From Winogradskyella thalassocola (GTDB lineage: Bacteria > Bacteroidota > Bacteroidia > Flavobacteriales > Flavobacteriaceae), in NCBI RefSeq assembly GCF_900099995.1, contig NZ_FNCZ01000001.1:930001-994000 (forward strand): 64,000 nucleotides of DNA. The letters are read 5' to 3'. Under the pieces are notes generated by a model, which made no database searches, was not told the origin of the DNA, and worked only from the letters and a program-made list of their open reading frames with translations. Positions 2,057 through 63,500 of the stretch are shown piece by piece. Both the position numbers and the translations under genes were made by a program. Positions within the stretch are counted from its first letter, which is position 1, and every line of letters begins with the position of its first letter.

Positions 2057-4591
2057 ATGAAAAAATTTAGTCTTTTTTTATGTATCGTTGTTCTAACTAG
2101 TTTAACAACAATTGCATATGCCCAAAGCACTATCACGGGTAAAATTATTGATAGTGACATGAACTCTGCGCTTCCTGGTGCTAATATTATTGAGAAGGGA
2201 ACGACCAATGGGACAACTACAGATTTCGAAGGTACTTTTACTTTTAACTCTAATTCGAGTTCAGGTGAAGTTGTTATTTCTTATGTCGGTTATGTTTCTC
2301 AAACTATTGCATTTAACGGAGACACGGATTTAGGTACAATCACGTTAATGTCTAGTAACGTTGGCTTAGATGAAATTTTACTTGTAGCTTCTGTCGCTGT
2401 CGATAGAAAAACACCAGTTGCTGTTTCAACTATTAAGGCTGAAGAAATTGCTATTAAGTTGGGTACTCAAGAATTTCCTGAAATTTTAAAATCTACACCT
2501 GGTGTTTATGTAACAAGACAAGGTGGTGGTTATGGAGATAGTAGAATTAACCTTAGAGGATTTAATTCTGAAAACGTAGCGGTAATGATTAATGGTGTTC
2601 CGGTAAACGATATGGAAAACGGAGCTGTATATTGGAGTAACTGGGCAGGTTTAGGAGATGTAACATCTACGATGCAAGTTCAAAGAGGTTTAGGTGCTTC
2701 TAAAGTAGCTGTTGCTTCTGTTGGTGGAACAATTAACATTATTACAAAAACAACTGATGCAGAACAAGGTGGTAGCTTTGGTACTAGTATTGCTAATGAT
2801 GGGTATTTAAAATACGGTATGACGTATTCTACTGGATTAAGTGATAGTGGTTTTGCAGCAACAGTTAGTGCAGCAAAAATTGATGGTGATGGATATGTTG
2901 ATGGAACTGAGTTTTCAGGATACAATTACTTTTTAAGTTTATCTCAACAAATAAATGACGCACACAGATTGTCATTTACGGCTTTTGGAGCACAACAAGA
3001 ACACGGTCAACGTTTCAACCGTTCTACAATTGCTGAATTAAAGGATACAGATTCTGGTCCACAGAAAGCAAATAAAGATTGGGGTTATAAAAATGGTGAA
3101 GTATATCATCAATCTTATAATTTCTACCACAAACCTCAAATGTCTATTAATCATTTATGGAATATAAATGATGCTTCTTCATTATCAACAGCAGTATATG
3201 CATCGTTTGGTTCTGGTGGTGGACGTAGAGATGAAGGTTCTAAAATTGGTTCTGATGATTATAGAATTGGATCAACGGGCTTAACACCTATTGATTTTGA
3301 TAAAGTTATTGCAGAAAACCGTGCTAGTGGAGTAAATGGTTCTACAGATATTATTTCTTCTTCTAGAAACTCTCATGAATGGTATGGAATCTTATCTAGT
3401 TATAAAAACAGAATCAACGATAAATTAACAATATCTGCTGGTTTTGATGGTCGTTCTTATGTTGGATCACACTGGTACCAAGTGGATGATTTATTAGGAG
3501 GTGAATTTTTCTTAGATAATGAAACTGATACTTATGCTTTTGGTAAACCGTTACAAGTTGGTGATAAATACAACAAGGATTATGATGGTGTTGTAACAAG
3601 ATACGGACTTTTTGGACAAGCAGAATACCAAATTAATGAGTCAGTAAACGTATTTGTAGCAGGTGATGTTTCAAACAGTAACTACAAGCAGAGAGAATAC
3701 ATGAATAATACCATTGTAGGTAGCAGAGAGTCTGAAGTTGTAAACTTTACAGGATACGGTATTAAAGGTGGTGGTAACTATAACTTAGACATGAACAACA
3801 ATGTGTTTGTAAATGTTGGTTATTTTTCTAAAGCACCATTTTTAGATGATGTATTTTTAGATGAAGATGGAATCATTCCTAATGAAGATGCGGTTAATGA
3901 AAAGGTATTTAGTGCAGAACTTGGATACGGTTTCCGTGGCGAGAAATTAAGTGCTAACGTTAACATATATTATACACAATGGTTAGATAAGTCATTAGGT
4001 GGTTCACTTGGTACTGGTGAAAGTCTATTTTTCTACAACTTGCAAGGTATAGATGCATTACACCAAGGTGTTGAAATTGATTTAAGATATAAAGCTACTG
4101 ATAAAGTAACGGTAACAGGTATGGTATCGTTAGGAGATTGGCAGTGGAAAAGTAACGTGTCATCAGAAATTAGAGATCAATCTGGTGATGTTATAGATGT
4201 TGTTGAAGTTTATGCAGAAGATTTAAAAGTAGGTGATGTTGCTCAAACAACATTTGCAGTAGGTGTAGATTATAAATTAGCGTCTAAATCTAATATCTAT
4301 GTAGATTATAACTTTGCAGGTGACAACTATTCATCTTACGATGTTACAAATAGAGGAAGTAGTGATTTACCAGATGTTTGGGAACTTCCTGATTTTGGTT
4401 TATTTGATGTTGGTTTAAGACATACTTTTAATATCGGAACATTTGAAACGACATTAATAGGTAAAGTGAATAACGTTTTTAATACTGAGTATGTTTCAGA
4501 TGCTAATGATTTAAATGGTACGGCATCAGCAGCTCAAGTTTATTTTGGTCCTGGTAGAACATACAGTGTAGGATTAAAAGTTAATTTTTAA
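2057..4591 (+). CDS. TonB-dependent outer membrane receptor with carboxypeptidase-like regulatory domain
   Basis: Outer-membrane barrel that imports a ligand using TonB energy; 844 residues. A signal peptide (MKKFSLFLCIVVLTSLTTIA, ending about residue 23) is followed by a CarboxypepD_reg-like beta domain (about 24-108). The plug domain (about 115-230) includes NLRGFNSENVAVMINGVPVN and a run ending GGTINIITK. The 22-strand barrel ends in GRTYSVGLKVNF, a normal terminal strand with Phe. It is followed within 12 bases by a lipoprotein, so the two probably form a receptor/surface-lipoprotein pair. The lipoprotein is not SusD-like, so I do not call this SusC. The ligand is unknown; pgi upstream is not evidence of a sugar substrate. 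Confidence 0.92.
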   Translation: MKKFSLFLCIVVLTSLTTIAYAQSTITGKIIDSDMNSALPGANIIEKGTTNGTTTDFEGTFTFNSNSSSGEVVISYVGYVSQTIAFNGDTDLGTITLMSSNVGLDEILLVASVAVDRKTPVAVSTIKAEEIAIKLGTQEFPEILKSTPGVYVTRQGGGYGDSRINLRGFNSENVAVMINGVPVNDMENGAVYWSNWAGLGDVTSTMQVQRGLGASKVAVASVGGTINIITKTTDAEQGGSFGTSIANDGYLKYGMTYSTGLSDSGFAATVSAAKIDGDGYVDGTEFSGYNYFLSLSQQINDAHRLSFTAFGAQQEHGQRFNRSTIAELKDTDSGPQKANKDWGYKNGEVYHQSYNFYHKPQMSINHLWNINDASSLSTAVYASFGSGGGRRDEGSKIGSDDYRIGSTGLTPIDFDKVIAENRASGVNGSTDIISSSRNSHEWYGILSSYKNRINDKLTISAGFDGRSYVGSHWYQVDDLLGGEFFLDNETDTYAFGKPLQVGDKYNKDYDGVVTRYGLFGQAEYQINESVNVFVAGDVSNSNYKQREYMNNTIVGSRESEVVNFTGYGIKGGGNYNLDMNNNVFVNVGYFSKAPFLDDVFLDEDGIIPNEDAVNEKVFSAELGYGFRGEKLSANVNIYYTQWLDKSLGGSLGTGESLFFYNLQGIDALHQGVEIDLRYKATDKVTVTGMVSLGDWQWKSNVSSEIRDQSGDVIDVVEVYAEDLKVGDVAQTTFAVGVDYKLASKSNIYVDYNFAGDNYSSYDVTNRGSSDLPDVWELPDFGLFDVGLRHTFNIGTFETTLIGKVNNVFNTEYVSDANDLNGTASAAQVYFGPGRTYSVGLKVNF

Positions 4592-4603
4592 AAAAAATTG
4601 AAT

Positions 4604-6277
4604 ATGAAAAGAATATTTTATTGTTTAGCAATTTTGGGTGTAACCTTTGTAGGTTGTAACCCAATGGATGACATTTACGGAGATTTAGACACGTCAGCAG
4701 ACCCAATTGTAGGATCTGAATCTTACACTTTAACTGCAGATGATTATGCAGATTTAGAATTAGGATTTGGTAGCTTTAGCTCAGAAGAAGATGCTAAAAC
4801 AATGTTGCCAGGTTTTTTAGCCGACAAATATCCGTTTTGGGGACAAGGATCTTCGGTATTAGTTGGATACCAATTATACGTAGGTAGTGCGGAAGGAGTT
4901 AGTGATTTTACAAGTTCAGATGTTTATAACTTCACAAATTCTGATTATGCAACTACGGGTAGTGACGCTTTTGGTTTTTATCCAGATGTTAATGCAACAG
5001 ATGAAATTCCTGCGATTTTAGATGCTCAAATAGCTGCTCCTACTGAGGGACAAGTAGTTTTAGCAAAATATGCCCATTATACAGAAGTACCTGTAGTTGG
5101 ATTAGCAGATTTAGTATCTTATAATTTTGCTGGAAGTTTTGAAGGATGGAGTGCTGTTGAAGAATATGGAGCAGATGAAGTATGGACTTCAGAAACTGGT
5201 AACGTAAGAGGTAACGGTTATTTTGGAGATCAAGAAACAAATGCAGAATGGTTAGTATCGCCTTCAATTGATTTAACTGATGAGAGTGATCTTAAATTTC
5301 AAATTACTCAAGAACTTGATTTTGCTATTGATGCATCATTAGTTAAAATTTTAGTGTCAACAGATTATACTGATGATGTTTTTACTGCAACTTGGGATGA
5401 AATTACTTTAGCAATGCCTGCTACAGAAGATATGGCTCCTTCAGAAGATTACGATTTTTCTGCTTATGATGGTGAAACTATCAATATCGCGTTTAAATAT
5501 ACTTCTATAGGTGATGATGAATCTACTCCAGACGTTGATGAAGGTGATGCTTCAAGATGGAGAATTCAAAGTTTAGCAATTAAAACAGTTGGAGCTACAG
5601 GTGATAGAAATTTTAAAGGAGAATATTTTATGTACTCTGGTGGTTCTTGGGAAGCTGTAGAAGGTGTTTATTACTTAAGCTCTGATGATTACGATTCAAT
5701 GGGAGAAGGTTCTGGTCAGCCAGGACAGTATAATAACTTTAGTAGTTCATTATCTCCTGATAACTATTTACCAACATTTTTAAACTTAAACTTCCCTTAC
5801 GCTCAGGAAGATGAAGAATTGGTGATTGTTTATGATTACTTTTCAAGTTCTAGTGGAGCGCAAAGAAGAGGTAATTTTTATACTGTATCTGGTGGTGAAT
5901 TTGTAGGACATGAGTCAACAATATCTACAACACTTCAGTTTGGATATGATAATGGTTTATGGGTTCCTGATAATACTATTAGATATACATTTGGTCCTGC
6001 TGATTACGCTGCGGTAGCAACGGCATTAGGTGATATTTATCCAAATGCTACATCTAGTATGTCTAATTATGGAAATATGGATAGAAGAGCAGGTAATTCT
6101 GCTGAATGGACTAATGCAATGGTACTTGAGGCTATAAATGTAGTCTTAGATATCAATGTTCCTTCTGCTGCAGAAGAACAAAAGTATGTTATTACTGTTG
6201 AGGTTTATAACGGTAGTAATACAACAGAAGACTTCGCTGTTATAAAAATGGGAGGAGAATGGGTTTACCAAAACTAA
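4604..6277 (+). CDS. Lipoprotein with choice-of-anchor-J-like domain, partner of the TonB receptor
   Basis: A 557-residue lipoprotein, probably exported to the outer membrane: the signal peptide ends in the lipobox FVGC (Cys18) and is followed by an acidic spacer. I choose the ATG at 4604 over an in-frame TTG two codons earlier. Residues about 170-335 resemble the choice-of-anchor-J (MAM/concanavalin-like) beta-sandwich, with the typical SFEGW start and a Trp-Leu-Val-Ser-Pro-Ser-Ile-Asp-Leu segment. The C-terminal 220 residues are Tyr-, Ser- and Gly-rich and unassigned. Position right after the TonB receptor suggests it binds or presents the same ligand at the cell surface, in place of a SusD. 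Ligand unknown. Confidence 0.8.
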   Translation: MKRIFYCLAILGVTFVGCNPMDDIYGDLDTSADPIVGSESYTLTADDYADLELGFGSFSSEEDAKTMLPGFLADKYPFWGQGSSVLVGYQLYVGSAEGVSDFTSSDVYNFTNSDYATTGSDAFGFYPDVNATDEIPAILDAQIAAPTEGQVVLAKYAHYTEVPVVGLADLVSYNFAGSFEGWSAVEEYGADEVWTSETGNVRGNGYFGDQETNAEWLVSPSIDLTDESDLKFQITQELDFAIDASLVKILVSTDYTDDVFTATWDEITLAMPATEDMAPSEDYDFSAYDGETINIAFKYTSIGDDESTPDVDEGDASRWRIQSLAIKTVGATGDRNFKGEYFMYSGGSWEAVEGVYYLSSDDYDSMGEGSGQPGQYNNFSSSLSPDNYLPTFLNLNFPYAQEDEELVIVYDYFSSSSGAQRRGNFYTVSGGEFVGHESTISTTLQFGYDNGLWVPDNTIRYTFGPADYAAVATALGDIYPNATSSMSNYGNMDRRAGNSAEWTNAMVLEAINVVLDINVPSAAEEQKYVITVEVYNGSNTTEDFAVIKMGGEWVYQN

Positions 6278-12606: not shown

Positions 12607-13323
12607 TTAATCTCTAGACATAAATATGCTTAAAATATACCAGAATAATAACATTAATGAAGCAAACAAACCTAGAGCAGCCGGAATATAATCATCAACG
12701 CCATACGTTTTTACCAAATTAGAGGTTTGATACAAAATTGACCCTCCTGCTAATAAACACATCGCTACTGAGAACCATAAGCCTAAACTAAAACCAAATA
12801 GGGTTCCAGCTATAATTAAACCTATAGCTATAAAGAAGCCTATAGTTAATCCTGTTTTTAAAAATGAGAAATCAGACTTGGTCATTAATACAACGGCAGA
12901 TAAGCCGGTAAACAATGCTAAAGTAACAATTGCCGCTTGGTTTAGAATTTCTGGACCAGACTCCATATAATAAGCAGCCATATATATTAATGGTACAAAG
13001 ATTAATGCTTGAAAAAAGATGTAAATGCCATACGCCATGTATTGCGTGTTTTTATCAGTAGTTTTCATAGCTAGCCCTTCAGCATATCTAGTGGCCAACA
13101 TAAAACCACCAAGCACTAATAACCATTTGTAGCCTTCTGTCATAGATAACATAAACTCTACAACGGTGTCACTTTGTAGTAAAAGATATTCAAAAAGTAT
13201 AAAGACAAGTACGCCTCCTGCAACATGTCCGTATGTTTTTTTATAAAATGTAGCGCGTTCAACGTCGGAAATGCTGCCTATTACTATTTTTTCTGAGGTT
13301 TGACTCGGGAATTGATTGTCCAT
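12607..13323 (-). CDS. Bax inhibitor-1/YccA family integral membrane protein
   Basis: A 238-residue protein with about seven hydrophobic helices, starting after a short polar N-terminus. It is of the bacterial BI-1/YccA/YetJ group: the segment VERATFYKKTYGHVAGGV leads into the first helix, and the last helices end in FWYILSIFMSRD. Members are pH-sensitive calcium leak channels (B. subtilis YetJ) or modulators of FtsH (E. coli YccA); which applies here is unknown. It is monocistronic or follows the zinc peptidase after a weak terminator. Confidence 0.9.
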   Translation of the reverse strand: MDNQFPSQTSEKIVIGSISDVERATFYKKTYGHVAGGVLVFILFEYLLLQSDTVVEFMLSMTEGYKWLLVLGGFMLATRYAEGLAMKTTDKNTQYMAYGIYIFFQALIFVPLIYMAAYYMESGPEILNQAAIVTLALFTGLSAVVLMTKSDFSFLKTGLTIGFFIAIGLIIAGTLFGFSLGLWFSVAMCLLAGGSILYQTSNLVKTYGVDDYIPAALGLFASLMLLFWYILSIFMSRD

Positions 13324-13382
13324 TTTAGATTTAAAGATTGGTTAGTTTAACTAATGTAGGTATTTTCAGTAGTATTTCAAAC

Positions 13383-13411
13383 AAAAAAAAGCTCCGATTA
13401 CTCAGAGCTTT
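13383..13411 (-). terminator. Intrinsic terminator after the zinc peptidase gene
   Basis: On the minus strand, stem AAAGCTC / GAGCTTT with a 10-base loop followed by eight T. Confidence 0.75.
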
Positions 13412-13436
13412 AATTGTATGTATTTGTTTTATTTGG

Positions 13437-14141
13437 TTAATCTCTACCACCAAATACTTGTAGTGCCCAGTATAATAAAGACGCTAATGCACCAATAGCA
13501 GCAACTAAATACGTTCTAGCAGCCCATTTTAAGGCATCTTCAGAACCTTTATATTCATCTGGTGTTAGCATGTTTTTATTTTTTAACCAAGCTAAAGCTC
13601 TGTTACTTGCGTCGTATTCTACAGGTAAAGTAATAAAGCTAAATAATGTAGCAAAGCCCATAAAAACTAAACCAGCAACAGCAACCCAATAGCCAATACC
13701 TATGCCTGCGGCAGCACCTAAGATTAAACCACCAATAACTAACCACTGCGACATTCCTGAGGTTACACTTACAATTGGCACTAATGCCGAACGCATACCT
13801 AAAGCACTATAAGCTTGTGCGTGTTGTACGGCGTGTCCACATTCGTGAGCAGCAACAGCAGCCGAAGCAGCGTTTCTTTGATTATAAACAGACTCGCTTA
13901 AGTTTACTGTTTTATTTTTTGGATTGTAATGATCTGTTAATTGTCCTGGTGTAGAAATAACCTCTACATCAGTGATACCATTATCTGCCAACATTTTTTC
14001 TGCAATTTCTCTACCAGATAAACCATTTCGTAATTGTATTTTGGAGTATTTAGCAAATTTTTTTTTAAGTTGATTACTCACTAACCAGCTTACTAAAGCA
14101 ATAGCACCAATTAGTATGTAATATCCCATCATTCCACTCAT
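13437..14141 (-). CDS. YugP-family neutral zinc metallopeptidase
   Basis: A 234-residue membrane-bound peptidase. The first helix (residues 5-22) anchors it. The zinc motif is in AAHECGHAVQHAQAY (HExxH form HECGH, about residue 100), followed by hydrophobic helices. The C-terminal DASNRALAWL and YLVAAIGALASLLYWAL segments match the YugP family. Length is close to the B. subtilis protein (about 225). Substrates are unknown. Bax-inhibitor-1 lies downstream on the same strand; ald is the upstream neighbour. Confidence 0.9.
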   Translation of the reverse strand: MSGMMGYYILIGAIALVSWLVSNQLKKKFAKYSKIQLRNGLSGREIAEKMLADNGITDVEVISTPGQLTDHYNPKNKTVNLSESVYNQRNAASAAVAAHECGHAVQHAQAYSALGMRSALVPIVSVTSGMSQWLVIGGLILGAAAGIGIGYWVAVAGLVFMGFATLFSFITLPVEYDASNRALAWLKNKNMLTPDEYKGSEDALKWAARTYLVAAIGALASLLYWALQVFGGRD

Positions 14142-14246
14142 AATTTGAAATTTTTAATTCATGTAAATTTAATAAATGAATTGCAAATAATGAGCCAAAT
14201 TTGAGTTAAGAAATTTTGTCAGGATTTTAGATGACAATGGCTAACT

Positions 14247-15347
14247 TTACATAGCATCAACAGACCAATTGAAGGCTTCAGCGATTTCTTCATAAACGAT
14301 TTTGCCTTTAACAATATTTAATCCTTTTGCTAAAGTTTCGTCATTTTTACATGCCGTTTCCCAACCTTGATTGGCTAAACGTAACACATAAGGTAACGTT
14401 ACATTAGTTAAAGCTAAAGTTGATGTGTATGGCACAGCTCCTGGCATATTAGCAACACAATAATGTACAACATCATCAATAATAAATGTTGGGTCCTCGT
14501 GTGTTGTTGCTCTTGTTGTTTCCATACAACCACCTTGGTCTACAGCAACATCCACCAAAACAGTGCCTGGTCGCATGTCTTTAAGCATATCTCTAGTGAT
14601 TAGTTTAGGTGCTTTTGCTCCTCTTACTAAGACACCGCCAATAATTAAATCATGATCTTTGATACGTCTTCTAATATTGTACTCGCTTGAAAACTCCGTT
14701 ACCACATGGCTAGGCATTACGTCGTTTACATAACGCAGTTGCTTCATATTGATGTCCATAACCGTAACATGGGCACCTAAACCAGCAGCCATTTTAGCCG
14801 CTTGAATACCAACGATACCCGCACCTAAAACTAAGACACGTCCTGGAGGTACACCTGGTACTCCTCCTAACAATACTCCACGACCTTTAATCGGTTTTTC
14901 TAAATATTTAGCTCCTTGCTGAATGGCCATTCTTCCGGCAACCTCAGACATTGGAGTTAATAATGGAAGTGTGCCATCTTTATCTTCAACCGTTTCGTAG
15001 GCAATACAAACGGCTTCGCTTTTTAACATGGCTTTTGTTAAAGGTTCGCTAGAAGCAAAATGAAAATAGGTAAATACCACATGATGCGATTGTATTAAAG
15101 GATATTCTTCTTCAATTGGTTCTTTTACCTTTACAATCATGTCGCTAGAGGTGTAAACATCGGTTATAGTTTCTAACACAATGGCTCCAGCATTTATATA
15201 ATCTAAATCCGAAAATCCGCTACCAAAACCAGCATCTTTCTGAACATATACGGTATGTTTGTTTTTTGTTAGCTCGAAAACGCCAGCAGGTGTCATACCA
15301 ACTCTGTTTTCATTGTTTTTAATTTCCTTTGGGACTCCGATTTTCAT
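14247..15347 (-). CDS. ald: Alanine dehydrogenase
   Basis: A 366-residue NAD-dependent enzyme interconverting L-alanine and pyruvate plus ammonia. It starts MKIGVPKEIKNNENRVGMTP, the AlaDh/PNT N-terminal signature. The substrate Lys lies in MIVKVKEP and the catalytic His in HHVVFTYFHFASS. The Rossmann loop VLVLGAGIVGIQAAKMAAGLGA (about residues 170-190, quoted in family form) ends in an Asp (VMDIN), which favours NAD. The segment VANMPGAVPYTSTLALTNVT closes the substrate site. It has a 430-base upstream gap with no other gene, so it is probably a single-gene unit. Confidence 0.95.
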   Translation of the reverse strand: MKIGVPKEIKNNENRVGMTPAGVFELTKNKHTVYVQKDAGFGSGFSDLDYINAGAIVLETITDVYTSSDMIVKVKEPIEEEYPLIQSHHVVFTYFHFASSEPLTKAMLKSEAVCIAYETVEDKDGTLPLLTPMSEVAGRMAIQQGAKYLEKPIKGRGVLLGGVPGVPPGRVLVLGAGIVGIQAAKMAAGLGAHVTVMDINMKQLRYVNDVMPSHVVTEFSSEYNIRRRIKDHDLIIGGVLVRGAKAPKLITRDMLKDMRPGTVLVDVAVDQGGCMETTRATTHEDPTFIIDDVVHYCVANMPGAVPYTSTLALTNVTLPYVLRLANQGWETACKNDETLAKGLNIVKGKIVYEEIAEAFNWSVDAM

Positions 15348-21804: not shown

Positions 21805-22932
21805 TTATTTACTTATAAAATCAATAAACTCTTCGGTGATTTGCTTTAAATAGAACGTTGTATTTTCTAATGCATCATCTAAATTAATAGCTTTGTAAAT
21901 GATAGAATCTCTATAAACAATTCCCATTTGATTTAGTTCGTCAGGTATTAAATCAATACTTCCGCAAAAAGCAGCCACTTTTATTTTATTGTTATTTGCT
22001 GAAGTTAAAACACCACTTAAGGTTTTTCCGGATAAGGTTTGGTTATCTAATTTACCTTCGCCTGTAATAATCCAATCTGCATTTTTAATTTTAGTATCAA
22101 AATTGGCTATCTGTTTTATTAGGTCAATTCCAGGTAGAAGTTCTCCGTATAGAAAAGCGACGGCACCAGCACCCATTCCTCCAGCAGCACCAGCACCTGC
22201 TATGTTTTGAATTTTAATATTAAAATGTTTATCTAAAATTTTGGAGAAACTTTGTAAACCAGAATCTAAATCACTGATGTCTGATTCTGTCGCCCCTTTT
22301 TGTTTGGCATAAACATGTGCAGCACCATTAGGTCCGTAAAGTGGATTTGTAACATCGCAAGCGATTTGAAATTTAATAAATTTCAATCTTTTATCTACTA
22401 GAGAATCATCGATTTCACAAATATTAATAAGTTCACAACCAATTGGTTTGATATCATTATTGTTTTTGTCTAAGAAGCGATATCCTAAGGCATTTGCCAT
22501 ACCAATACCACAATCGTTTGTAGCACTTCCTCCAATACCTAAAATAATATGTTGCGCACCTTGGTCAATAGCATTAAGAATTAATTGCCCAGTACCATAG
22601 GTTGTGGTGTGCATACAATTTTGATCTGAAGGCTTTAAAAGTTTCATTCCAGAAGCTTCAGCCATTTCAATAAAAGCAATTTTAGAAGATTCTGAATATA
22701 AAAAAGAGGCTATAACAGAGTTGAATGTAGGGTTCATAACTTTGACCTGAATAACCTCTCCTTTCAAATAATAGTTGACGACTTCAATGGTGCCATCGCC
22801 ACCATCTGCTAAAGGTGACTTCATAATTTCAACATGGGGTGTTATGGCTTTTATAGTTGCTTCAACTACATTACAAAACTCCATCCCTGTTAAGGAATTT
22901 TTGAATTTATCTGGTGCTAGTACTATCTTCAT
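21805..22932 (-). CDS. Glycerate kinase (GarK/GlxK family)
   Basis: A 375-residue cytoplasmic kinase phosphorylating D-glycerate, in the GarK family usually to 2-phosphoglycerate. It starts MKIVLAPDKFKNSLTG, has the SPLADGGDGTIEV substrate loop, and contains LGIGGSATNDCGIGMANALG (residues about 130-150); all three are family signatures. It is the last gene of the probable minus-strand operon TonB receptor, GH63 hydrolase, symporter, glycerate kinase, five bases after the symporter. With a GH63 of the glycosylglycerate-hydrolase type upstream, the obvious job is to bring released glycerate into lower glycolysis. Confidence 0.95.
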   Translation of the reverse strand: MKIVLAPDKFKNSLTGMEFCNVVEATIKAITPHVEIMKSPLADGGDGTIEVVNYYLKGEVIQVKVMNPTFNSVIASFLYSESSKIAFIEMAEASGMKLLKPSDQNCMHTTTYGTGQLILNAIDQGAQHIILGIGGSATNDCGIGMANALGYRFLDKNNNDIKPIGCELINICEIDDSLVDKRLKFIKFQIACDVTNPLYGPNGAAHVYAKQKGATESDISDLDSGLQSFSKILDKHFNIKIQNIAGAGAAGGMGAGAVAFLYGELLPGIDLIKQIANFDTKIKNADWIITGEGKLDNQTLSGKTLSGVLTSANNNKIKVAAFCGSIDLIPDELNQMGIVYRDSIIYKAINLDDALENTTFYLKQITEEFIDFISK

Positions 22933-22937
22933 TTGCT

Positions 22938-24584
22938 TTAACTTAAAATGGATGGAAGAAAATAACTGAATATTATAATAAAAATGAAAAAGGCTACAAG
23001 TATATAAACTTCTTTTATCATAAAATCCTCTTTCCTAATTGTTACATTAAAATTGGAAATACTCTTTATTGCTGTTTTTCTAGTTAAAGCACTGACAACG
23101 TAAGCCACGACTAAGGCTATTATGACTCCTGTGAAATTAAGCCAGATCCAAAAAATATTAAAACCTAAATCGATATGAAATAACTCTTGTATGGTTTTTG
23201 AAAAAACCAAGTTAACAAGCACTGCAGAAATGATTGCAGCATTCATCCCAATATGATTTACTTTTTTTGAAAAGAATGCTAAAAAGAAAGTCACTAAAAC
23301 TGGTCCGTAAAAGACAGAACCAATCGCATTAATAATTTCTATAACAGCACTTTTACTACCCCCAAAAAGAAAGGCAGCTGCAATACAAACCACTCCCCAA
23401 AACACAACAGAGCCTTTAGAAATAAGCATGTACTTTTTATTACTCAACTTTACTTTACCACGATTAAAAAAATCTTCAACAGTTACTGCAGATAATGAAT
23501 TAACTGTAGAACTCAAAGAGGACATGGCTGCTGATAAAATGCCGACCATTAATATACCTATTAAACCATGTGGTAAAAATTTCATGATAAAAACAGGCAC
23601 CATTAAATCTGCCTTAACACCATGCGTTGCATATTCATCCGGGAAATATTTTTGAGTAGTCATCGCTATGTCTTCAAGGAAATCGGGTGCTACTGTAATT
23701 AATCCACCAATGACTAATCCCATAATACAATAGATTAAAACCACGGGGAATCTTAAAAGACCATTTGCCATTAAAAGGGTTCTAATGGTTTTTTCGTTTT
23801 TTGCAGAGAGCAAACGTTGTGCTTGTGTTTGGTCACAACCATAATAAGAAGCGTAAAGAAAAAAACCACCAATAATCATTGGCAATATCCCATATTCATT
23901 TCCTTCTCCTATTCCTAAATTATAGTCTATTACTTTTAGGCGTTCAGGATCAAAACCAGCTTCTAAACCTCCGTGTTCTTGCAAAAGACTCCAACCAAAA
24001 TACAAGCAAATAATTAAGCCAGCGAATAATATAATCATCTGTATGGCATCTCCCCATACAACAGCCTTCATACCACCTTGCCAAGAATAAATAATAGTAA
24101 TAACACTTATTATTAAAATGGTGTAAACAAAATCTATATTTAAAACAGCTTGTAAAATAATGGCGATGGTATATACCATAACGCCTGTACCTAATGCGCG
24201 ACTAATTTGAAATACAATACTTAAAATTAATCGTGTTGATGTACTAAAACGTTTCTCTACAAACTCATAAATACTCACTACTCCAGACCTAAATAATGGA
24301 GGTATTATAACAATCATTATAAAAATCATGGCCAACGGAACTGCAAACTCGAAAGTTAGCCATTTCATGCCACCACCTATTTTTAAACCAACAAAGGCTG
24401 GGGCCGAAATAAAACTAATTGCCGATAATTGGGTTGCCATTGTAGATAGACTTAATGGGAACCAACCCATATTTTTGCCTCCCAAAAAATAATCTTTTGA
24501 GTCTTTGTTATCCTTAAAGAAAAACCCCATTCCTAAAAAGAAAATGATGTAAAATATTACAATACTATAGTCTAGCCAATTCAT
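22938..24584 (-). CDS. Sodium:solute symporter (SSS family)
   Basis: A 548-residue inner-membrane transporter with about 14 hydrophobic helices and the SSS topology: LGMGFFFKDNKDSKDYFLGGKNMG in the first loop (family hallmark, spread over residues 17-41), then STMATQLSAISFISAPAF in helix 2 with sodium-site residues. It resembles the solute:sodium symporters of sugar-type loci (SGLT/YidK-like). Position between a cytoplasmic GH63 hydrolase and glycerate kinase suggests it brings the intact glycoside across the inner membrane after TonB-driven entry. The substrate is inferred. It follows a 233-base gap that may hold a second promoter, though I see no consensus one. Confidence 0.92.
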   Translation of the reverse strand: MNWLDYSIVIFYIIFFLGMGFFFKDNKDSKDYFLGGKNMGWFPLSLSTMATQLSAISFISAPAFVGLKIGGGMKWLTFEFAVPLAMIFIMIVIIPPLFRSGVVSIYEFVEKRFSTSTRLILSIVFQISRALGTGVMVYTIAIILQAVLNIDFVYTILIISVITIIYSWQGGMKAVVWGDAIQMIILFAGLIICLYFGWSLLQEHGGLEAGFDPERLKVIDYNLGIGEGNEYGILPMIIGGFFLYASYYGCDQTQAQRLLSAKNEKTIRTLLMANGLLRFPVVLIYCIMGLVIGGLITVAPDFLEDIAMTTQKYFPDEYATHGVKADLMVPVFIMKFLPHGLIGILMVGILSAAMSSLSSTVNSLSAVTVEDFFNRGKVKLSNKKYMLISKGSVVFWGVVCIAAAFLFGGSKSAVIEIINAIGSVFYGPVLVTFFLAFFSKKVNHIGMNAAIISAVLVNLVFSKTIQELFHIDLGFNIFWIWLNFTGVIIALVVAYVVSALTRKTAIKSISNFNVTIRKEDFMIKEVYILVAFFIFIIIFSYFLPSILS

Positions 24585-24817
24585 AATCTTAGAATTTCAG
24601 TCTTTATTAGTTTGTTTAAGGTTTATTTCTGTCTTTACTTATTCTAGTCTTAAAAAATAAATTAGAATGACAACAGTTCTTTCAGTACCATTAATATTTG
24701 GGAACATATTTATTAGAAAGCTTTACCCTGATTTTTTATGTAATTATAATAGTTTAGCCTTGTTGTTCGTTATGGTATAATTTTCAGAAAATCAGATTTT
24801 ATACGATCTTATGAATT

Positions 24818-26128
24818 TTAAGACTTCAGAAAATCGATTAGTAAAGCCGCACTCCATGAAAAGTTATTACCTCCATAACCTGCATTTTCTTTTACTTCTT
24901 TTCTTGAATCAAAATATTCGTAAAATCCGTACTTTTCTATTAACTCAATAGAATCTTTCTTTACGCGATTGGAAAGATCATAAAAACCATAAGCTTTTAA
25001 ACCTCTATAAAGTAGCCAGTTTAAATTAATCCAAACAGGACCTCTCCAATATTTTTTAGGGTTAAATCGGTCACTTTCAGGATCGAAGGACGCACATAAG
25101 TATCTGTCTTCAGTACCAAATTTTTTCATCATTGTTTTTACAATAGTCTCAACTCTTTCCTCATTAGGAATATCTGCAAATATTGGGGCAAAGGATGACG
25201 ATGATAAATATTCTATCTGCTTTTCGTTTCTAAGATCGTAATGTACATAAGCGCCTAGCTTTTCATTAAATAGTTTTTCGTTAAATCGTTTAATAGCTTT
25301 GGTTTGCCATTGCTTTAAAGTTTTTATTTTATCGTCAGAATTACCAATTAACCCATAAAGTTCAATTAATGCTGCATTAGATTTTATTAGCATAGCATTA
25401 AAAAGCGGATCTTGGACTAAAAATGGAGATAATTCAGCAATTTTAGCATCATCGTAATTGTGTTCTTTTGCAATTTCTATGAGGTGTAAATAGTAATCAT
25501 ATTCCCTATTCGTTGGTCTTTGTGCAGCATCAACATGAGTAGTATCTCTTCGTTCAAATTTATATTTTGGCGGATCCATAGTAGCCCAAATATCATCCCA
25601 AATAGGAGAATTATCTGTGCCAGATTCCCAATTGTGATAAATATAAACTAAGCCTTCTTTATTAGGATCTCTATACGTATAAAAATGTTCGTGGTTATTA
25701 TAAACCTTGTCAATATTACGTTTTATAAAATTCAAGATATCAACTTTATCTTCGATGATATCATAAAGTTCTTTTAGAACAAACCCTAAAACAGGAGGTT
25801 GTGTCATTCCTGTAGTTCTATGCGTTTTTGAAGCCAAAGGATGTAACTTAGACTGGTGAAAATCTGGGCCAGGAAAATACGTATCACTGTCATTATGAAA
25901 AACGATGTGTGGTATAAAACCATTTTCCCATTGCGCACTCAATAATGCTTCAATTTCGCGTTTGGCTTTAGTTGCATCATAGTGTGCAAATCCTATAGCG
26001 ATAAACCCAGAATCCCAGTTCCATTGAAAAGGATACAAACCTTCACAAGGAATTGTAAAACCTTTATCTTCTTTAAAATTGTTGTTAAGGACTGTTTCAG
26101 CCTTTTGTATTAAATTGTTATTTGTCAT
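24818..26128 (-). CDS. GH63 glycoside hydrolase, glucosylglycerate/mannosylglycerate hydrolase type
   Basis: A 436-residue (alpha/alpha)6-barrel enzyme. I use the ATG at 26128 (MTNNNLIQKAETVL); there is no signal peptide, so it acts in the cytoplasm. The pattern is that of bacterial glucosylglycerate and mannosylglycerate hydrolases as I remember them. Shared segments include LYPFQWNWDSGFIAIG, LLSAQWENGFIPHIVF, YFPGPDF, TGMTQPPV, NWESGTDNSPIWD (probable acid Asp172), QRPTNREYDYYL, YWRGPVWINLNWLL and FYEYFD (probable base Glu404). Length is also right (about 440). The glycerate kinase two genes downstream supports a glycerate-releasing reaction. Trehalase (GH37) is less likely because its signatures are absent. 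Glucose versus mannose cannot be told by eye. Confidence 0.85.
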   Translation of the reverse strand: MTNNNLIQKAETVLNNNFKEDKGFTIPCEGLYPFQWNWDSGFIAIGFAHYDATKAKREIEALLSAQWENGFIPHIVFHNDSDTYFPGPDFHQSKLHPLASKTHRTTGMTQPPVLGFVLKELYDIIEDKVDILNFIKRNIDKVYNNHEHFYTYRDPNKEGLVYIYHNWESGTDNSPIWDDIWATMDPPKYKFERRDTTHVDAAQRPTNREYDYYLHLIEIAKEHNYDDAKIAELSPFLVQDPLFNAMLIKSNAALIELYGLIGNSDDKIKTLKQWQTKAIKRFNEKLFNEKLGAYVHYDLRNEKQIEYLSSSSFAPIFADIPNEERVETIVKTMMKKFGTEDRYLCASFDPESDRFNPKKYWRGPVWINLNWLLYRGLKAYGFYDLSNRVKKDSIELIEKYGFYEYFDSRKEVKENAGYGGNNFSWSAALLIDFLKS

Positions 26129-26205
26129 AGTAGAATTGTAAAATGAAAAAGAAAGCATTGACACAATCTAACAATGCCAATGCGATCAAACTCAATTAAT
26201 CAAAC

Positions 26206-28800
26206 TTAAAAATTAAATGTAGCATTGAAAAACACTCTTGTTGGTAACACTGGTCTTCCAACAAAATATTCTTCATCTGTTTGGTTGTTTCCTAATCGTG
26301 GTGATCCTTCTGTAACTCCTTCGGAATTGAAAAGGTTAAACACTTGTGCTCCTAAGCGAAGTGTTTCTCCATCTTCACTTAAAGCAAGTGTATATCCAAG
26401 GTTTAAATTTGCTAAACCGATAGCATCTAATTCTATGCTATTCGCATCATTCGCAAACTTTTTACCTGTATAATTATAAACTAAACCTGCATCAAATTTT
26501 GAGTCGTTGTAATCAACAGCCAAAGTTGATAGTATGTTAGGTTGTCTTCTTAATTCGTTTCCTTCTAAATCAGTGTTAGCTTCAGATTTTGTTATTTCAT
26601 GGCCTTGATAAGTTAATGATCCGCCAAAGTTAAAGTTCTCAGCAAAAATCCAATTCCAAGTACCTTCAAGTCCGTAAGTGCTCGTATCTTGAATATCAAC
26701 TTCTTCTGTAAATCCACCTCCTGGTGCGTTTACAAAACTAATAGAACGTCTATCTTTTAAACTAACAGCATAAAGCGCAGCTGTTCCGGAAAATTTATTT
26801 TTAGAATATTTAAGACCTAATTCTCCTTGTATAATTTTTTCAGTATCATATGAAGAAGGATTACCTAATGCATCAAACTTTGTTGATCTTAGTTCTGGGA
26901 AGAAGTAGCCTCTTGAGAAGTTTCCATAAGCACTTAAATCATCATTCACTTTATATAAACCTGCAACAACAAGAGCAAAATCATCAGCCGACACATGTCC
27001 TCTTGTAAAACTTCCGTTACCCCAAGTTGCGTTATCTAAATTTGCAATACCAGTATTATCTACGTTATAAGATTGAGTACCTTCAACTTCAATATCTCCT
27101 GAAGCTCTTTCATATCTAATACCGTAGTCAAAATTCCAACGATCAAGTTTTACTTCATCTGCCACAAAAAAAGCGATTTTATTACTAGAAATATTTCTAT
27201 TTGTATAAGCTGTACCTCTATTAGTGACACCATTTATGGTGTAGCCTGATACGTTTATTAATTCAGGTCTATCATTATACTCCCCTAAATAATTAGTAAT
27301 GACATTAAAATCACCGCCTTCAGATCTAGACATAAAAGTTCCGAAAGTTATGTTATGATTTCCTGCAGTTTTAGTAAACTTGATATCTGCCATTAACTCT
27401 TGTAAAGGTCTATTACGATCTAAAATTCTATTTTCAAATAATAAAGCATTTGAAGCTAAGGGCTGTCCGTTGAGATAGGTGAAATCACCAGAAGTTAAAC
27501 CTCTAGCATCTAAGTATTCTTGTTGTGTTTCTACAGCTTTTGCTCCTGAAACACCACTTCCATCAAGAAAAAGGTTGAATTGATGTTCATATTTCGAATA
27601 TCTTAATTTAGCGTCTAATCTTAAATCATCTGAAAAACGATGTTTGATATCTGTTAAAAAATATCCACCTCTAGTGGCAACTCCATCTTCTATTGGTGAA
27701 TTATAAATACCATCTGGTGTTGCATAAGAAATATCAGATGCTGCAGCAGTTTGTAGCGTAAATATTTCTTCGCCATCATTTCCTGTAGGACGTTTTCTTG
27801 AACCTCCTTCTAAAGGGTAAGGTAAAAAGAATTGTACTGCATCATCAATCCATTGTCCTGATAAGGTAATTGATCCTTTGTCAGTAACGTGTTTAATGTT
27901 ACCTCTTAATTGGAAACCTTCTGTCGCTAAACCTGTTTTTATAGGGCCTTCATCATATCTATAAAAACCAGATAATGCGTAGAAGGTATTAGAATCTTCA
28001 CCTCCTAGAGGACCGCTTGTAGCAAAATCAGCCTTGTATCTTGAATTTGAAGCAACTTCAGTACGTAATGTTGTTTTACTTTTACTACTTCCTGTAGCAC
28101 TTGTGTAATTAATTATTCCTGCCACAGAACCAACACCATAAAGAATAGAAGATCCACCTCTTACAAATTCTAAACTTTTCATTCCTATATCATTCCTAAA
28201 ATACACATCATGTGCAGAAGAATTTAAACCAAAAGTACTAAGTACTGGCATACCATCAATTTGTAAAGGATTAAATTGATACTGTCCACCAGAAGGTAAA
28301 CCTCTTACAAAAATATTTGAGGCAACCTCACCACCACCACCTTCAGCAGTAATGCCAGGAATACTTCTAAGGACATCTGCCTGACTACTGGTATTTACCG
28401 TTGATAATTTTTTGGAACCAATAGATGTAATAGACATTGGTGTTTCTTTTTGTGATCTTGTTGTAGATGTTGCTGTTAAAAGAACAGTATCTAAAGAGTT
28501 ACCTCCTTCAGATAAAATGGCATTTACAGTTAGTGCTGTACCATCACAATTAATTGTTTGTTGGTAAGTTTCAAATCCTAAATAAGAAATCTGAATAATT
28601 TGTTCTCCTGATAAATCAGTAGTAAAACTAAAATTTCCATCAAAATCAGTTGTTGCACCAGAAGTGCTTCCTTTAATAATTACATTGGTACCCATAATCG
28701 GCATACCAGATGCATCCGTAACTTTTCCGCGAATCTCTGTTTGCGAAAAAGCAGTAAACGCACTTATAAAAAGTACGAATGCGAGTAGAGATCTTTTCAT
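26206..28800 (-). CDS. TonB-dependent receptor of the glycosylglycerate locus
   Basis: An 864-residue outer-membrane receptor: signal peptide (MKRSLLAFVLFISAFTAFSQ), CarboxypepD_reg-like domain (about 21-108), plug (about 115-230; SILYGVGSVAGIINYTSATG) and barrel ending in VFFNATFNF. It is the first gene of the probable operon, directly downstream of the LacI operator region, and no SusD-like partner is present. Receptors without SusD usually carry small ligands, which suits a glycosylglycerate. Related proteins are annotated as TonB receptors of FecA/CirA type. The ligand is inferred from the neighbours alone. Confidence 0.9.
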   Translation of the reverse strand: MKRSLLAFVLFISAFTAFSQTEIRGKVTDASGMPIMGTNVIIKGSTSGATTDFDGNFSFTTDLSGEQIIQISYLGFETYQQTINCDGTALTVNAILSEGGNSLDTVLLTATSTTRSQKETPMSITSIGSKKLSTVNTSSQADVLRSIPGITAEGGGGEVASNIFVRGLPSGGQYQFNPLQIDGMPVLSTFGLNSSAHDVYFRNDIGMKSLEFVRGGSSILYGVGSVAGIINYTSATGSSKSKTTLRTEVASNSRYKADFATSGPLGGEDSNTFYALSGFYRYDEGPIKTGLATEGFQLRGNIKHVTDKGSITLSGQWIDDAVQFFLPYPLEGGSRKRPTGNDGEEIFTLQTAAASDISYATPDGIYNSPIEDGVATRGGYFLTDIKHRFSDDLRLDAKLRYSKYEHQFNLFLDGSGVSGAKAVETQQEYLDARGLTSGDFTYLNGQPLASNALLFENRILDRNRPLQELMADIKFTKTAGNHNITFGTFMSRSEGGDFNVITNYLGEYNDRPELINVSGYTINGVTNRGTAYTNRNISSNKIAFFVADEVKLDRWNFDYGIRYERASGDIEVEGTQSYNVDNTGIANLDNATWGNGSFTRGHVSADDFALVVAGLYKVNDDLSAYGNFSRGYFFPELRSTKFDALGNPSSYDTEKIIQGELGLKYSKNKFSGTAALYAVSLKDRRSISFVNAPGGGFTEEVDIQDTSTYGLEGTWNWIFAENFNFGGSLTYQGHEITKSEANTDLEGNELRRQPNILSTLAVDYNDSKFDAGLVYNYTGKKFANDANSIELDAIGLANLNLGYTLALSEDGETLRLGAQVFNLFNSEGVTEGSPRLGNNQTDEEYFVGRPVLPTRVFFNATFNF

Positions 28801-28822
28801 TTATTTATAGTTTTATTATTGT

Positions 28823-28855
28823 TTTGGTAAATTTATTGTCAAATCGTTAAGTTTG
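28823..28855 (+). promoter_or_regulatory. Promoter of the lacI-family regulator gene
   Basis: TTTG at 28823-28826, 21 bases, then TAAGTTTG at 28848-28855: full consensus. Transcription would start near 28860, so the operators at 28881-28906 lie just inside the leader, a roadblock arrangement suited to autoregulation. Confidence 0.7.
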
Positions 28856-28880
28856 TATCATAAATATTACGAAATTACCA

Positions 28881-28906
28881 CGCAAACGTTTGCGGTAACG
28901 TTTGCG
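28881..28906. promoter_or_regulatory. Two overlapping palindromic LacI-family operators
   Basis: CGCAAACGTTTGCG (28881-28894) is a perfect 14-base palindrome with the central CG typical of LacI/GalR operators. CGGTAACGTTTGCG (28893-28906) is a second copy with two changes in one arm, sharing two bases with the first; centres are 12 bases apart. They lie in the 117-base gap between the divergent receptor and regulator genes, so one regulator can control both. Confidence 0.8.
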
Positions 28907-28917
28907 TAAGCTATAAA

Positions 28918-29943
28918 ATGATGAAAAATAAAATTCCAACCTTAAAAGAGATTGCTGAGAAGCTGGGAATATCTATTTCAACAGTATCAAGAGCACTAAA
29001 TGATCATCAAGATATAAGTGAAGTCACAAAAGAAAGAGTAAAAGCATTAGCTGCGGATTTGAATTATATTCCTAATATTTTTGCAAAAGGTTTTAGAACA
29101 CATAAAACAAATATTATTGGTGTTGTTGTACCTAACATTACGCACTATTTTACAACCACATTAATAAGAGGAATATTAGAGGAAGCATCACTTCAAGGTT
29201 ATCGTGTAATAATTTCAGAATCGAATAATGATGTAGATAAACAAACAGAAATGCTTAATACCATGATTCAATTTGGTGTGGATGGTGTTTTAATGTCGTT
29301 ATCAAAGATGACGAGAGATATTAGTTCAATTTTGAAAATAATGAATACACTTCCTTTGATTTTATTTGATAAAGCTTCAAACAAAATTCCTTGTACTCAA
29401 GTTGTCATCAACGAAGAAGAAGCTACTTATAATGCCATTGAGCATCTCATAAATATTGGAAAAAGGAGAATAGCCATAATTAAGGAATCTGAATTTTCTT
29501 ATAATTCAGAAAAACGATTTGAAGGTTACTTAAGAGCCTTAAAAGAAAACAATTTACCAATTGATGAAAAAATTATATTGAGTGTTGACGATATTTCAAT
29601 GATTCAGGGAAAACGAATGACGAATGTTTTAATGAGTCTAAAACAAAAACCTGACGCTATTTTTGCCATAACAGATAGCGCTGCTATTGGTGTAATTAAA
29701 ACATTAAAAAAATTGCATGTAAAAATCCCAGAGGAAGTTGCTGTTGTAGGGTTTAGCAATTCTATAAACTCTACAATAATAGAACCTATGTTAACCACGA
29801 TAGATCAACCAGGTCAAAAAATAGGAGCTACAGCAGTTAAATATTTAATAGAAGAAATTAATCATCCTAATGAGATATTCATTAATAAAACCATAGAAAT
29901 AAGAAGTAATTTAATTATTAGGAACTCAACGTTTAAAGTTTGA
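28918..29943 (+). CDS. LacI-family transcriptional regulator
   Basis: A 341-residue repressor. The N-terminal helix-turn-helix (residues 6-27, TLKEIAEKLGISISTVSRAL) and hinge helix (about 50-58, AADLNYIPN) bind the operators just upstream. The rest is a periplasmic-binding-protein-like effector domain starting at IIGVVVPNITHYF. It is divergent from the receptor-hydrolase-symporter-kinase operon, and its start lies 11 bases after the second operator, so it probably represses itself and the operon until the sugar ligand or a breakdown product binds. The effector is unknown. Confidence 0.93.
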   Translation: MMKNKIPTLKEIAEKLGISISTVSRALNDHQDISEVTKERVKALAADLNYIPNIFAKGFRTHKTNIIGVVVPNITHYFTTTLIRGILEEASLQGYRVIISESNNDVDKQTEMLNTMIQFGVDGVLMSLSKMTRDISSILKIMNTLPLILFDKASNKIPCTQVVINEEEATYNAIEHLINIGKRRIAIIKESEFSYNSEKRFEGYLRALKENNLPIDEKIILSVDDISMIQGKRMTNVLMSLKQKPDAIFAITDSAAIGVIKTLKKLHVKIPEEVAVVGFSNSINSTIIEPMLTTIDQPGQKIGATAVKYLIEEINHPNEIFINKTIEIRSNLIIRNSTFKV

Positions 29944-60536: not shown

Positions 60537-63500
60537 TTAAAAAATGTTTAAAATAAGGTGATTAATGGAAATAACGGTCTGGTTGTAAGCATTTAAATTA
60601 TCTAAATAAGACAGCTCAATATCTTTAGCTGTTTCTAAACTTTGGATATATTGAAAAAAGTCGATTTCACCTTCTTTAAAGGTTCGGTTGGCTGTTTTTA
60701 TAATTTCATCTTTTAAATGTTTACCTTGTGTATCGTAATAATTCACAGCTTCGTTGTATTTGTTTAGTGTGGTTAAAAGCGATTTATATTCTGAATTTAA
60801 CTGCACTTCATAATCTTGTTTTTGTTCAGATATGATGTCTTTGGCAATTTTAGATGCTTTAATTTTCGAAGAATTTCCAAAGAACAACAACGGAATTTTA
60901 ATCCCGAATTGGTAGCCTTTTATATTAGTGTTCAATTGGTCGTTTGTACCTTGAAAATATTCAAAATTAAGGTCTGGTAATAAATTTTGCTTTTCAGATT
61001 TATGTACTGCATTTTGATAGTTTTCGGCATTTTCAAAATAGAGCAAACCAAAATTATCCTGAAGCGAAGGAGTATATAGTTCTAGCTTTATTAATTCTTG
61101 GTCAACAATGTCTAAAGTATCAACTTGAACAATGGCTTTTAACTGCTCTTTTGAAAATTCAACATCCTGCAAAGCCTGTTTATACAATGTTTGAAGTTGT
61201 TTCTGTTTAGATTCAGCTGTAATAGTTTCTAAATAATTGGTTTCGCCAAGTTCAAACCGTCGTGCTGCTTTTTGTGAAAAATCTTGATACAAACTATCTA
61301 AAAAGCGATAGGTTTCAGCTTTCTGTTTGGCATAACTTAATTGATAATAACTAGAGTAAACCTTCTTTTTGACTCTTTGAAATTGAATATTATATTTAGA
61401 TTCTTCCAAATTTACCATCGCCTTATTTACTTTCTTTTCAGCAAAATATACTGTAGGAAACTTGAAGTCTTGAGAAATACCGAATACTTTTAGGGGCTCA
61501 TTGTTAATAGCTAAATTGCTTTCATCATAATTATGATACAAGGCTGTTTTATCAAAACTAAAAGCGCTGCCAACAAAGGCATCACTTTTTTCAATTTGTA
61601 AATTAGAAGCTTTTAAGCTGGCATTATTTTCAATAGCTAAGTCTAATGTTTGTTCTACGGTTAGTTGAGATTGTGCATTGACATTCATCATAAAAAAGAA
61701 TCCAATCACTGTGGCAACAGCTGTTTTATTCATTTTAATTTCTTTTTTCTCTTCAAACCAAGCGTACAATACTGGTAAAACTATTAATGTTAAGATGGTT
61801 GCAGTAACCAAGCCACCAATTACAACGGTTGCCAAAGGGCGTTGTACTTCTGCACCTGCATTTGTAGAAATAGCCATAGGTAAAAAACCTAAAGCTGCAG
61901 CTGCAGCGGTTAACACTACAGGTCTTAAACGTTCTGACGTGCCTCGTTTAATGCGTTCTTCAATATCATCAATACCTTGTGATTTGAGTTCTTTAAAATG
62001 CTCAATAAGTACTATACCATTTAAAACTGCAATTCCGAAAAGTGCAATAAAGCCAACACCTGCTGAAATACTAAAAGGCAAATCGCGCAACCATAGTAAT
62101 AAGATACCACCAACGGCCGAAAGCGGAATAGCAGAATACACTAATAAGGCTTCTTTAACAGAATTAAAGGCAAAATAGAGTAGTAGAAATATTAAGGCCA
62201 ATGCAATGGGTACAGCAACTGTTAATCGTGCTTTGGCACTTTCTAGATTTTCAAATTGTCCACCATAAGTAATAGTGTAACCAACAGGTAATTTAAGCTT
62301 GCTGTCAATAATAATTCTAACATCATCTACAACAGATTGCAAATCTCGGTTTCTCACGTTAATACCAACCACGATTCTACGTTTGGTATCATCGCGAGAT
62401 ATTTTTGCTGGTCCGGTTGTATATTGGATTTTGGCTAATTCGCTGAGCGGAATTTTAGTGCCACTAGGGGTATCTACATATAAGTTTTCTAGGCTTTCTA
62501 TGTTTTTACGATTCTTTTCATCTAATCGAATCACTAAATCAAAACGTTTTTCACCTTCAAAAACACTACCTACGGTTCCACCTGCAAATCCCATTGAAAT
62601 CAATTGATTAACATCTGAAATATTTAAACCATAACGCGCAATTTTACTTCGATTGAAAGTGACACTCATTTGCGGTAGCCCTTCGACTTTTTCAATAATA
62701 ATATCTGATGCGCCTTCAACATCTTGAATTAGACGTTTTATGTCATCTGCTTTATTGGCTAAAACGGATAACTCGTCACCAAAGATTTTAATAGCAATAT
62801 CTGCTCTAACACCTGTAATTAATTCGTTAAATCGCATTTCAATAGGTTGGGTGAATTCTACTTCCATACCTGGGATTATAGTCAATGCGTCTTTAAATTT
62901 ATCTGCTAATTCATCTTTGCTTTTTGCAGAAACCCATTCTTTTTTAGGTTTCAGTTTTATGATAACATCGCTTTCTTCCATAGACATTGGGTCTGTTGGG
63001 ACTTCTGCGGCACCAATCCTACTCACTACTTGGTCAACTTCCGGGAAATTATCTAGTAAGACTTGCTCAATTTTAGTGGTTATTTCTATGGTTTTACCGA
63101 GTGAAGTTCCTGTTTTTAAAACCGGTTGAATGACAAAATCACCTTCATCTAAAGTCGGTACAAATTCGCCACCCATTCTACTGAATACATAAAAACTAGA
63201 AACTAATAATAGAATTGCTAATCCAATCACTAATTTTTTGTGTTGTAAAGCCCAATTGATAGAAGGTTTATACCATGAGTTTAAAACTTTCATTAGTCTA
63301 ACAGAAACATTCTTATCGCTCGGTTTATTAGGTTTTAAAAATAAAGAAGCTACTACAGGAACATAAGTTAAACATAAAAGCATGGCTCCAATTAATGCAA
63401 AGCTAAAGGTTAAGGCCATTGGTCTAAACATTTTACCTTCCACACCACTTAAGGATAAGATTGGAATGAAAACGATTAAAATGATTAATTGTCCAAAAAT

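Follow-up and report, generated by a model that had tools for sequence, protein, structure and literature searches.

Known glycosylglycerate systems and the Winogradskyella thalassocola locus

Red algae and marine cyanobacteria contain mannosylglycerate (digeneaside) and glucosylglycerate as osmolytes, and routes for their use by bacteria are little described in the literature we surveyed. In Escherichia coli, mngA and mngB provide for mannosylglycerate uptake and hydrolysis by means of phosphotransferase system (PTS) import and an unrelated hydrolase. Here we analyze a 64,000-nucleotide stretch of the Winogradskyella thalassocola genome (G000:C19:930001-994000, hereafter the window), in which a gene for a putative glycosylglycerate hydrolase lies between genes for a sodium:solute symporter and a TonB-dependent receptor, in one run with a glycerate kinase gene and next to a divergent gene for a LacI-family regulator.

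The closest described systems are the digeneaside degradation genes of Maribacter dokdonensis 62-1, which passages of PMC8072126 (citing Barbeyron et al. 2016b) present as homologous to genes of Zobellia galactanivorans. Like those genes, the window locus belongs to Flavobacteriaceae and is proposed to act on the same compound, and several Maribacter loci in our data have its five-gene order. The comparison with the published genes is one of description only, as the PMC8072126 passages concerned contain no list of genes; nor do they include the operator, isomerase clue and transporter replacement described below. Digeneaside is also named in a passage of Kappelmann et al. 2019 (PMC6298971) as a possible substrate of Flavobacteriia from the North Sea, the same host group and compound as here, with no gene details in that passage, and glucosylglycerate appears in passages of PMC5507952 and PMC3985010 as an osmolyte of microbial mats. 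Among the listed titles and abstract openings on mannosylglycerate in Bacteroidota, Flavobacteria or TonB systems and on glucosylglycerate in Bacteroidota, a sample with subscription literature mostly outside it, none described such an operon. Related genes, those for digeneaside degradation in Maribacter and Zobellia, are already on record, so that the recognition of the unit here is solid, not surprising.

Thermus synthesises its own mannosylglycerate, and MpgS was found in our Thermus control genome; the Thermus thermophilus mannosylglycerate hydrolase (MgH; PDB 2z07, 4wva) is the nearest solved relative of the window hydrolase (2z07, 298 bits, 40% identity) and has the same 13 conserved residues, listed below. 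The glucosylglycerate hydrolase of Mycolicibacterium hassiacum (GgH; PDB 5ohc and others) is of the same family and also shares these residues (its structure entries reach 209-216 bits, 33% identity), but differs in carrying Gln434 where the window hydrolase has Phe and, according to the parts of PMC6608630 on its activity, in being almost tenfold more efficient on glucosylglycerate and in its proposed internal role.

A probable LacI-controlled operon for glycosylglycerates

Open frames, translations and Pfam and NCBIfam profiles define a locus with four genes on the minus strand and a fifth, divergent gene on the plus strand. With a probability of about 0.78, these constitute a LacI-controlled operon that takes up and degrades a 2-O-alpha-glycosyl-D-glycerate, most likely mannosylglycerate and possibly also glucosylglycerate. 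A preliminary description of this DNA had already read the minus-strand run of glycerate kinase, symporter, GH63 enzyme and TonB receptor with its divergent LacI gene as a complete glycosylglycerate uptake and catabolism locus. The gene content was confirmed by frames, translations and profile matches, and the reading holds as regards the hydrolase family, its pocket, the glycerate kinase and symporter in the unit, the lack of SusD and a regulator with a conserved operator; "complete" is too strong, as the locus has neither a hexose kinase nor a mannose-6-phosphate isomerase gene.

The hydrolase gene (24818-26164, minus strand) encodes a GH63 protein that exceeds the gathering score of PF22422 "mannosylglycerate hydrolase MGH1-like" by a wide margin (304 bits, cut-off 27), and it is the single PF22422 occurrence in the 4.57 Mb host genome. 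Its translation contains all four peptide segments that had been quoted as typical of glycosylglycerate hydrolases. By eye, the N-terminus shows no signal-peptide-like stretch, as had been stated before, and the enzyme is probably cytoplasmic. The true start of the frame probably lies downstream of the GTG at 26164, since an ATG twelve codons further in fits the relatives better.

According to PMC6608630, Asp182 and Glu419 of M. hassiacum GgH, together with eleven substrate residues, are strictly conserved in this enzyme and in all characterised MgH. The preliminary description had proposed an alignment of the glycerate pocket as a check, and the pocket residues are indeed present: all 13 occur in the window hydrolase (Y44, W48, W50, D51, Y96, Q122, G182, D184, R216, Y222, Y372, W373 and E416), and they are invariant in 34 of 34 aligned sequences, comprising the window and 33 relatives that we picked (14 from a list of 120 proteins and 19 from the 80 loci compared below). 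D184 and E416 correspond to D182 and E419 of M. hassiacum GgH in all 34 rows, and we propose D184 as the acid, E416 as the base and R216 as a glycerate-binding residue. As a control, we aligned 16 frames (13 distinct open reading frames) of distant Winogradskyella paralogues. Whereas W50, D51 and W378 were kept in 16/16 of these frames, R216 and Y222 occurred in 0/16, with six frames gapped there and the distant sequences only roughly placed.

This pattern bears on whether the hydrolase might instead act on another alpha-glucoside, such as trehalose, glucosylglycerol or similar, with the glycerate kinase as a coincidental neighbour. Weaker matches to trehalase (PF01204, 61 bits) and GH63 (PF03200, 36.5 bits) profiles and the source name "trehalase" borne by several relatives would fit such an activity. 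Yet the five direct glycerate contacts given for M. hassiacum GgH in PMC6608630 (Y36, W40, Y88, R216, Y375) are kept in 34/34 sequences, R216 is missing from every control frame, the same source passages report that GgH does not cleave glucosylglycerol or glucosylglycolate, and a glycerate kinase gene is present in 72 of the 77 related loci with a symporter. We regard an alpha-glucosidase of this other kind as very improbable.

The glycerate kinase gene (21805-22932, minus strand) matches PF02595 at 448 bits (3.1e-134) and TIGR00045 at 423 bits (cut-off 168); its nearest PDB entry is 3cwc, "Putative glycerate kinase 2", and it scored below the cut-offs of the equivalog models for glycerate 2- and 3-kinase. 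Next to it lies the symporter gene (22938-24584, minus strand; PF00474 133.6 bits, TIGR00813 208.7 bits with cut-off 184), the proposed inner-membrane importer of the intact glycoside. On the other side of the hydrolase, the receptor gene (26206-28800, minus strand; PF00593, PF07715, PF13715) encodes the proposed outer-membrane importer, whose N-terminus bears a signal-peptide-like stretch by eye. The receptor stayed below the SusC model TIGR04056 (90.6 bits, cut-off 368.25), and there is no SusD among the five genes of the run, as had been described, so that the SusC-SusD pair that marks a polysaccharide utilization locus is absent here.

Conservation of the gene order

To place the locus among its relatives, we compared it with the best 80 of 579 confirmed stretches from a search of genome contigs, a set in which close relatives are over-represented. 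The nearest named loci are those of Winogradskyella, and genomes of this genus hold the corresponding places. The full order of LacI gene, divergent TonB receptor, hydrolase, symporter and glycerate kinase recurs in 53/80 loci, which argues that the five-gene arrangement is not due to chance. LacI is the divergent neighbour in 53/80, the receptor directly precedes the hydrolase in 54/80, and the symporter comes next after the hydrolase in 77/77 loci with enough sequence; in the other three (L032, L054, L080) the sequence stops within 0.8 kb after the hydrolase. The exceptions to the presence of glycerate kinase are L060, which is cut short, and L056, L062, L063 and L081, with no kinase gene nearby. 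In L062, a GntP-type permease gene (12991-14316, PF02447) follows the symporter in the place of the glycerate kinase, and its product perhaps handles glycerate.

Nineteen loci that have glycerate kinase and five that lack it show a form with neither LacI nor receptor directly before the hydrolase, a count to be read with the fact that several of these loci (e.g., L026, L027) start too close to a contig edge to judge; by eye, the upstream stub of L026 resembles a receptor end. Within Winogradskyella, 18/60 genomes gave some hydrolase match and 13/60 a full-length relative (own genome included), four of the latter (L091-L094) with bacA directly adjoining the hydrolase and no receptor or regulator between. 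Across Flavobacteriaceae, hydrolase relatives (E up to 1e-60) occur in 57/397 sampled genomes and 47/237 genera, again own genome included, and the unit could accordingly mark osmolyte users.

Between hydrolase and symporter the window has a 233-base gap (24585-24817, minus strand) that apparently holds a decayed GNAT acetyltransferase remnant, with one weak tblastn match (52% over 25 residues, E 0.017) and, by eye, a stretch resembling a GNAT C-terminus; a comparable decayed stretch was seen by eye in L002. An open GNAT frame occupies this position in 16/80 relatives, with PF13302 in L019.

A conserved palindrome between regulator and receptor genes

The regulator gene (28918-29943, plus strand; PF00356, PF00532, PF13377) is separated from the receptor gene by a gap with two overlapping palindrome copies (28881-28906), which we propose as the LacI operator: CGCAAACGTTTGCG at 28881-28894 and a second copy with two mismatches at 28893-28906. 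We searched for the motif GCAAACGTTTGC in 54 lacI-receptor regions (the window and 53 loci, each with 60 coding bases added on either side), and the best match per region had 0 mismatches in 37, 1 in 10, 2 in 4, 3 in 1 and 6 in 2, so that 47/54 regions hold it with at most one mismatch. No match at 0 or 1 mismatch was found in 5400 base-shuffled sequences. For the 27 loci outside this set, the scan ran from 400 bases before to 60 bases after the start of the hydrolase gene (460 bases); no match had fewer than two mismatches, and 2/27 loci reached two. The run is hence predicted to be a LacI-regulated operon, as it has both a divergent LacI-type gene and a conserved palindrome between the genes. 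The box of E. coli PurR looks similar, and the motif is therefore typical of LacI-type proteins and not diagnostic.

The perfect 14-base site has one copy in the host genome, and its three one-mismatch sites lie within reading frames (L113, L114) or between two frames (L115). We looked among these sites for a wider LacI regulon that includes manA or a hexose kinase gene and found none. Separately, two CGAAAACGTTTTCG palindromes 20 bases apart were observed at G000:C19:42683-42716 beside frames that resemble LacI and TonB-receptor genes by eye, perhaps another LacI-regulated transport locus.

Mannosylglycerate or glucosylglycerate

Genes following glycerate kinase in the relatives offer a clue to the sugar. 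A gene beyond glycerate kinase is available in 69 loci. In 22 of them it lies within 250 bases and reads in the same direction; ten of these 22 followers (10/69 loci) are of the mannose-6-phosphate-isomerase kind, overlapping glycerate kinase or separated from it by 14 bases or fewer. Six followers are type I isomerases (L002, L003, L013, L016, L028, L029) and four are cupins of PF01050 (L018, L021, L037, L038). Profile tests covered five of them: L002, L016 and L028 exceed the PF20511 cut-off and L002 and L016 also that of TIGR00218, while L018 and L037 exceed the PF01050 cut-off without reaching the longer GMP_PMI model; the remaining five were placed by sequence clustering. Among the other 12 followers, that of L047 is a second symporter. 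The isomerase carriers belong to Winogradskyella, Lutibacter, Algibacter, Aquimarina, Flavobacterium and further Flavobacteria, and those within one genus are not independent. When the operon isomerase was searched in 60 genomes of the genus, a 95% match appeared in G032 (the same operon) and 64-69% matches in three genomes, beside a frame that by eye is GH3-like or symporter-like, and all remaining copies had at most 56% identity; the window genome has one manA-type copy (contig C11, 54% identical). Judged by these identities, the operon isomerase is a separate copy.

Isomerase-type followers from two families favour mannosylglycerate, and on balance we prefer it to glucosylglycerate by about two to one. 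Three observations pull in the other direction or lend this preference no help. First, 59/69 loci have no isomerase-type gene after glycerate kinase, and there is none near the window operon. Second, L051 (Lutibacter sp. B1) has between symporter and kinase a gene for a GH13 protein whose nearest matches are sucrose and glucosylglycerol phosphorylases, which would fit a glucoside such as glucosylglycerate. Third, the position of M. hassiacum Q434 is F435 in the window hydrolase; we considered this loop-E residue as a mark of mannose specificity and rejected it, because Phe is shared with T. thermophilus MgH and 13/16 control frames, and F435 is thus silent on sugar identity.

A main natural substrate of glucosylglycerate from marine cyanobacteria or bacteria overlaps with the explanation we prefer, which allows both compounds. 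Besides the sucrose-phosphorylase-like gene in L051, it draws on the report, in a passage of PMC11631117, of glucosylglycerate as a major solute of Prochlorococcus NATL2A, and on the similar efficiency on both compounds that passages of PMC6608630 attribute to the enzymes of T. thermophilus, to which the window hydrolase is nearest among solved structures, and of Selaginella moellendorffii. Set against this single GH13 gene are the ten isomerase-type followers from two families, and we consider glucosylglycerate as the main substrate possible but rather doubtful. By analogy with the T. thermophilus enzyme, the hydrolase of the operon may well take both compounds. With the operator and the isomerase clue in hand, the substrate can be tested directly.

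Exchange of single transporter genes

We also compared the histories of the individual genes, using trees of 34 rows (the window and 33 of the 53 full loci, picked by us for spread). The window hydrolase and glycerate kinase fall into an 8-row group with six other Winogradskyella loci and Mesoflavibacter L077 (100/97 and 100/99). The window symporter, in contrast, clusters in a group of 12 rows that includes Algibacter, Polaribacter and Kordia (100/100), away from the symporters of the six other Winogradskyella loci, which sit in another group (96/95). At the DNA level, window and L002 are 85.5% identical over 24818-29941, compared with 73% over the symporter. By tree and identity, the window symporter gene was replaced singly, by a gene from outside the genus that resembles those of Algibacter, Polaribacter and Kordia, in an otherwise Winogradskyella operon.

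Two receptor lineages can be told apart, with 45-51% identity between them when the window is the reference; one has the window and L002 (95% identical), the other L003-L006 and L008. The receptor tree was built with FastTree on 26 rows, with local support only and a long-branch warning; the L086 receptor (86%) also belongs to the window's lineage, by identity alone. On this evidence, two receptor lineages alternate at the same position among close relatives. Together, the symporter and receptor patterns imply that transporter genes were exchanged one at a time within a conserved unit, and they point to import as a function able to evolve independently of the enzyme. No link between transporter type and isomerase gene was visible by eye among the relatives' loci. 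A speculative and on balance unlikely extension would be a fixed enzyme core with exchangeable importers. Genera would swap individual transporter genes of the outer and inner membrane at one and the same position, and such a swap, with or without recruitment of a mannose-6-phosphate isomerase or GH13 phosphorylase-like gene, would retune the unit between mannosyl- and glucosylglycerate or aid escape from receptor-using phages.

Proposed pathway and its missing steps

In the pathway we propose, the glycoside would cross the outer membrane via the TonB receptor and, still intact, the inner membrane by sodium symport. Cytoplasmic hydrolysis by the GH63 enzyme, with D184 as presumed acid and E416 as presumed base given their conservation, would release hexose and D-glycerate, and the glycerate kinase, going by its family, would turn the latter into a phosphoglycerate for glycolysis. 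The hexose would be phosphorylated, and isomerised if it is mannose, by enzymes encoded elsewhere; contig C11 carries one manA-type gene. Repression by the LacI protein at the palindromic operator would last until an inducer is present.

Several findings weigh against a glycosylglycerate operon of this kind, or leave parts of it less well marked. The hydrolase did not reach the NCBIfam glucosylglycerate hydrolase equivalog NF047898 (323.1 bits, cut-off 550) and is for this reason not filed as a glucosylglycerate hydrolase. The control frames keep part of the glycerate side of the pocket (Tyr at Y96 in 10/16, Tyr at Y372 in 9/16, Trp at W48 in 6/16), so that only R216 and Y222 set it cleanly apart. 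With up to 2 mismatches allowed, the genome has no more copies of the operator than of its reversed control (17 vs. 26 per strand), and any specificity of receptor and symporter for glycosylglycerate is putative. Finally, ROK and PF02685 kinases had no match in the host genome, PF00349 being the only other kinase family searched; PF00349 had no match in any control genome either, hence this search is silent on the window genome. As the locus also has no hexose kinase gene, completeness is not evident for the hexose half of the pathway.

The hydrolase could also mobilise a glycosylglycerate made by the cell itself, as in mycobacteria, and the internal role proposed for the M. hassiacum enzyme in passages of PMC6608630 is a precedent. 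However, the host genome gave no MpgS match, and the GpgS model had 11 matches with 0 over the cut-off (one-step synthases were outside the search), which argues for import rather than a self-made store, and importer genes sit in the same unit as the hydrolase. Such an internal role is highly unlikely in our view, and uptake followed by degradation is preferred.

Neighbouring genes and other features of the window

The locus is flanked on one side by genes for leucyl-tRNA synthetase and an outer-membrane barrel protein and by ftsX, and on the other by the undecaprenyl-diphosphatase gene (bacA/uppP) and truB. Elsewhere in the window, a 1148-aa frame at 60537-63983 combines, in one protein, AcrB-type pump sequence (profile match from position 287 on) with an outer-membrane efflux protein domain; the frame lies at the window edge, and its beginning may lie outside. 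At 2057-6277, a gene for a TonB-plug protein with no barrel-domain match is followed by one for a 559-aa protein with no Pfam match.

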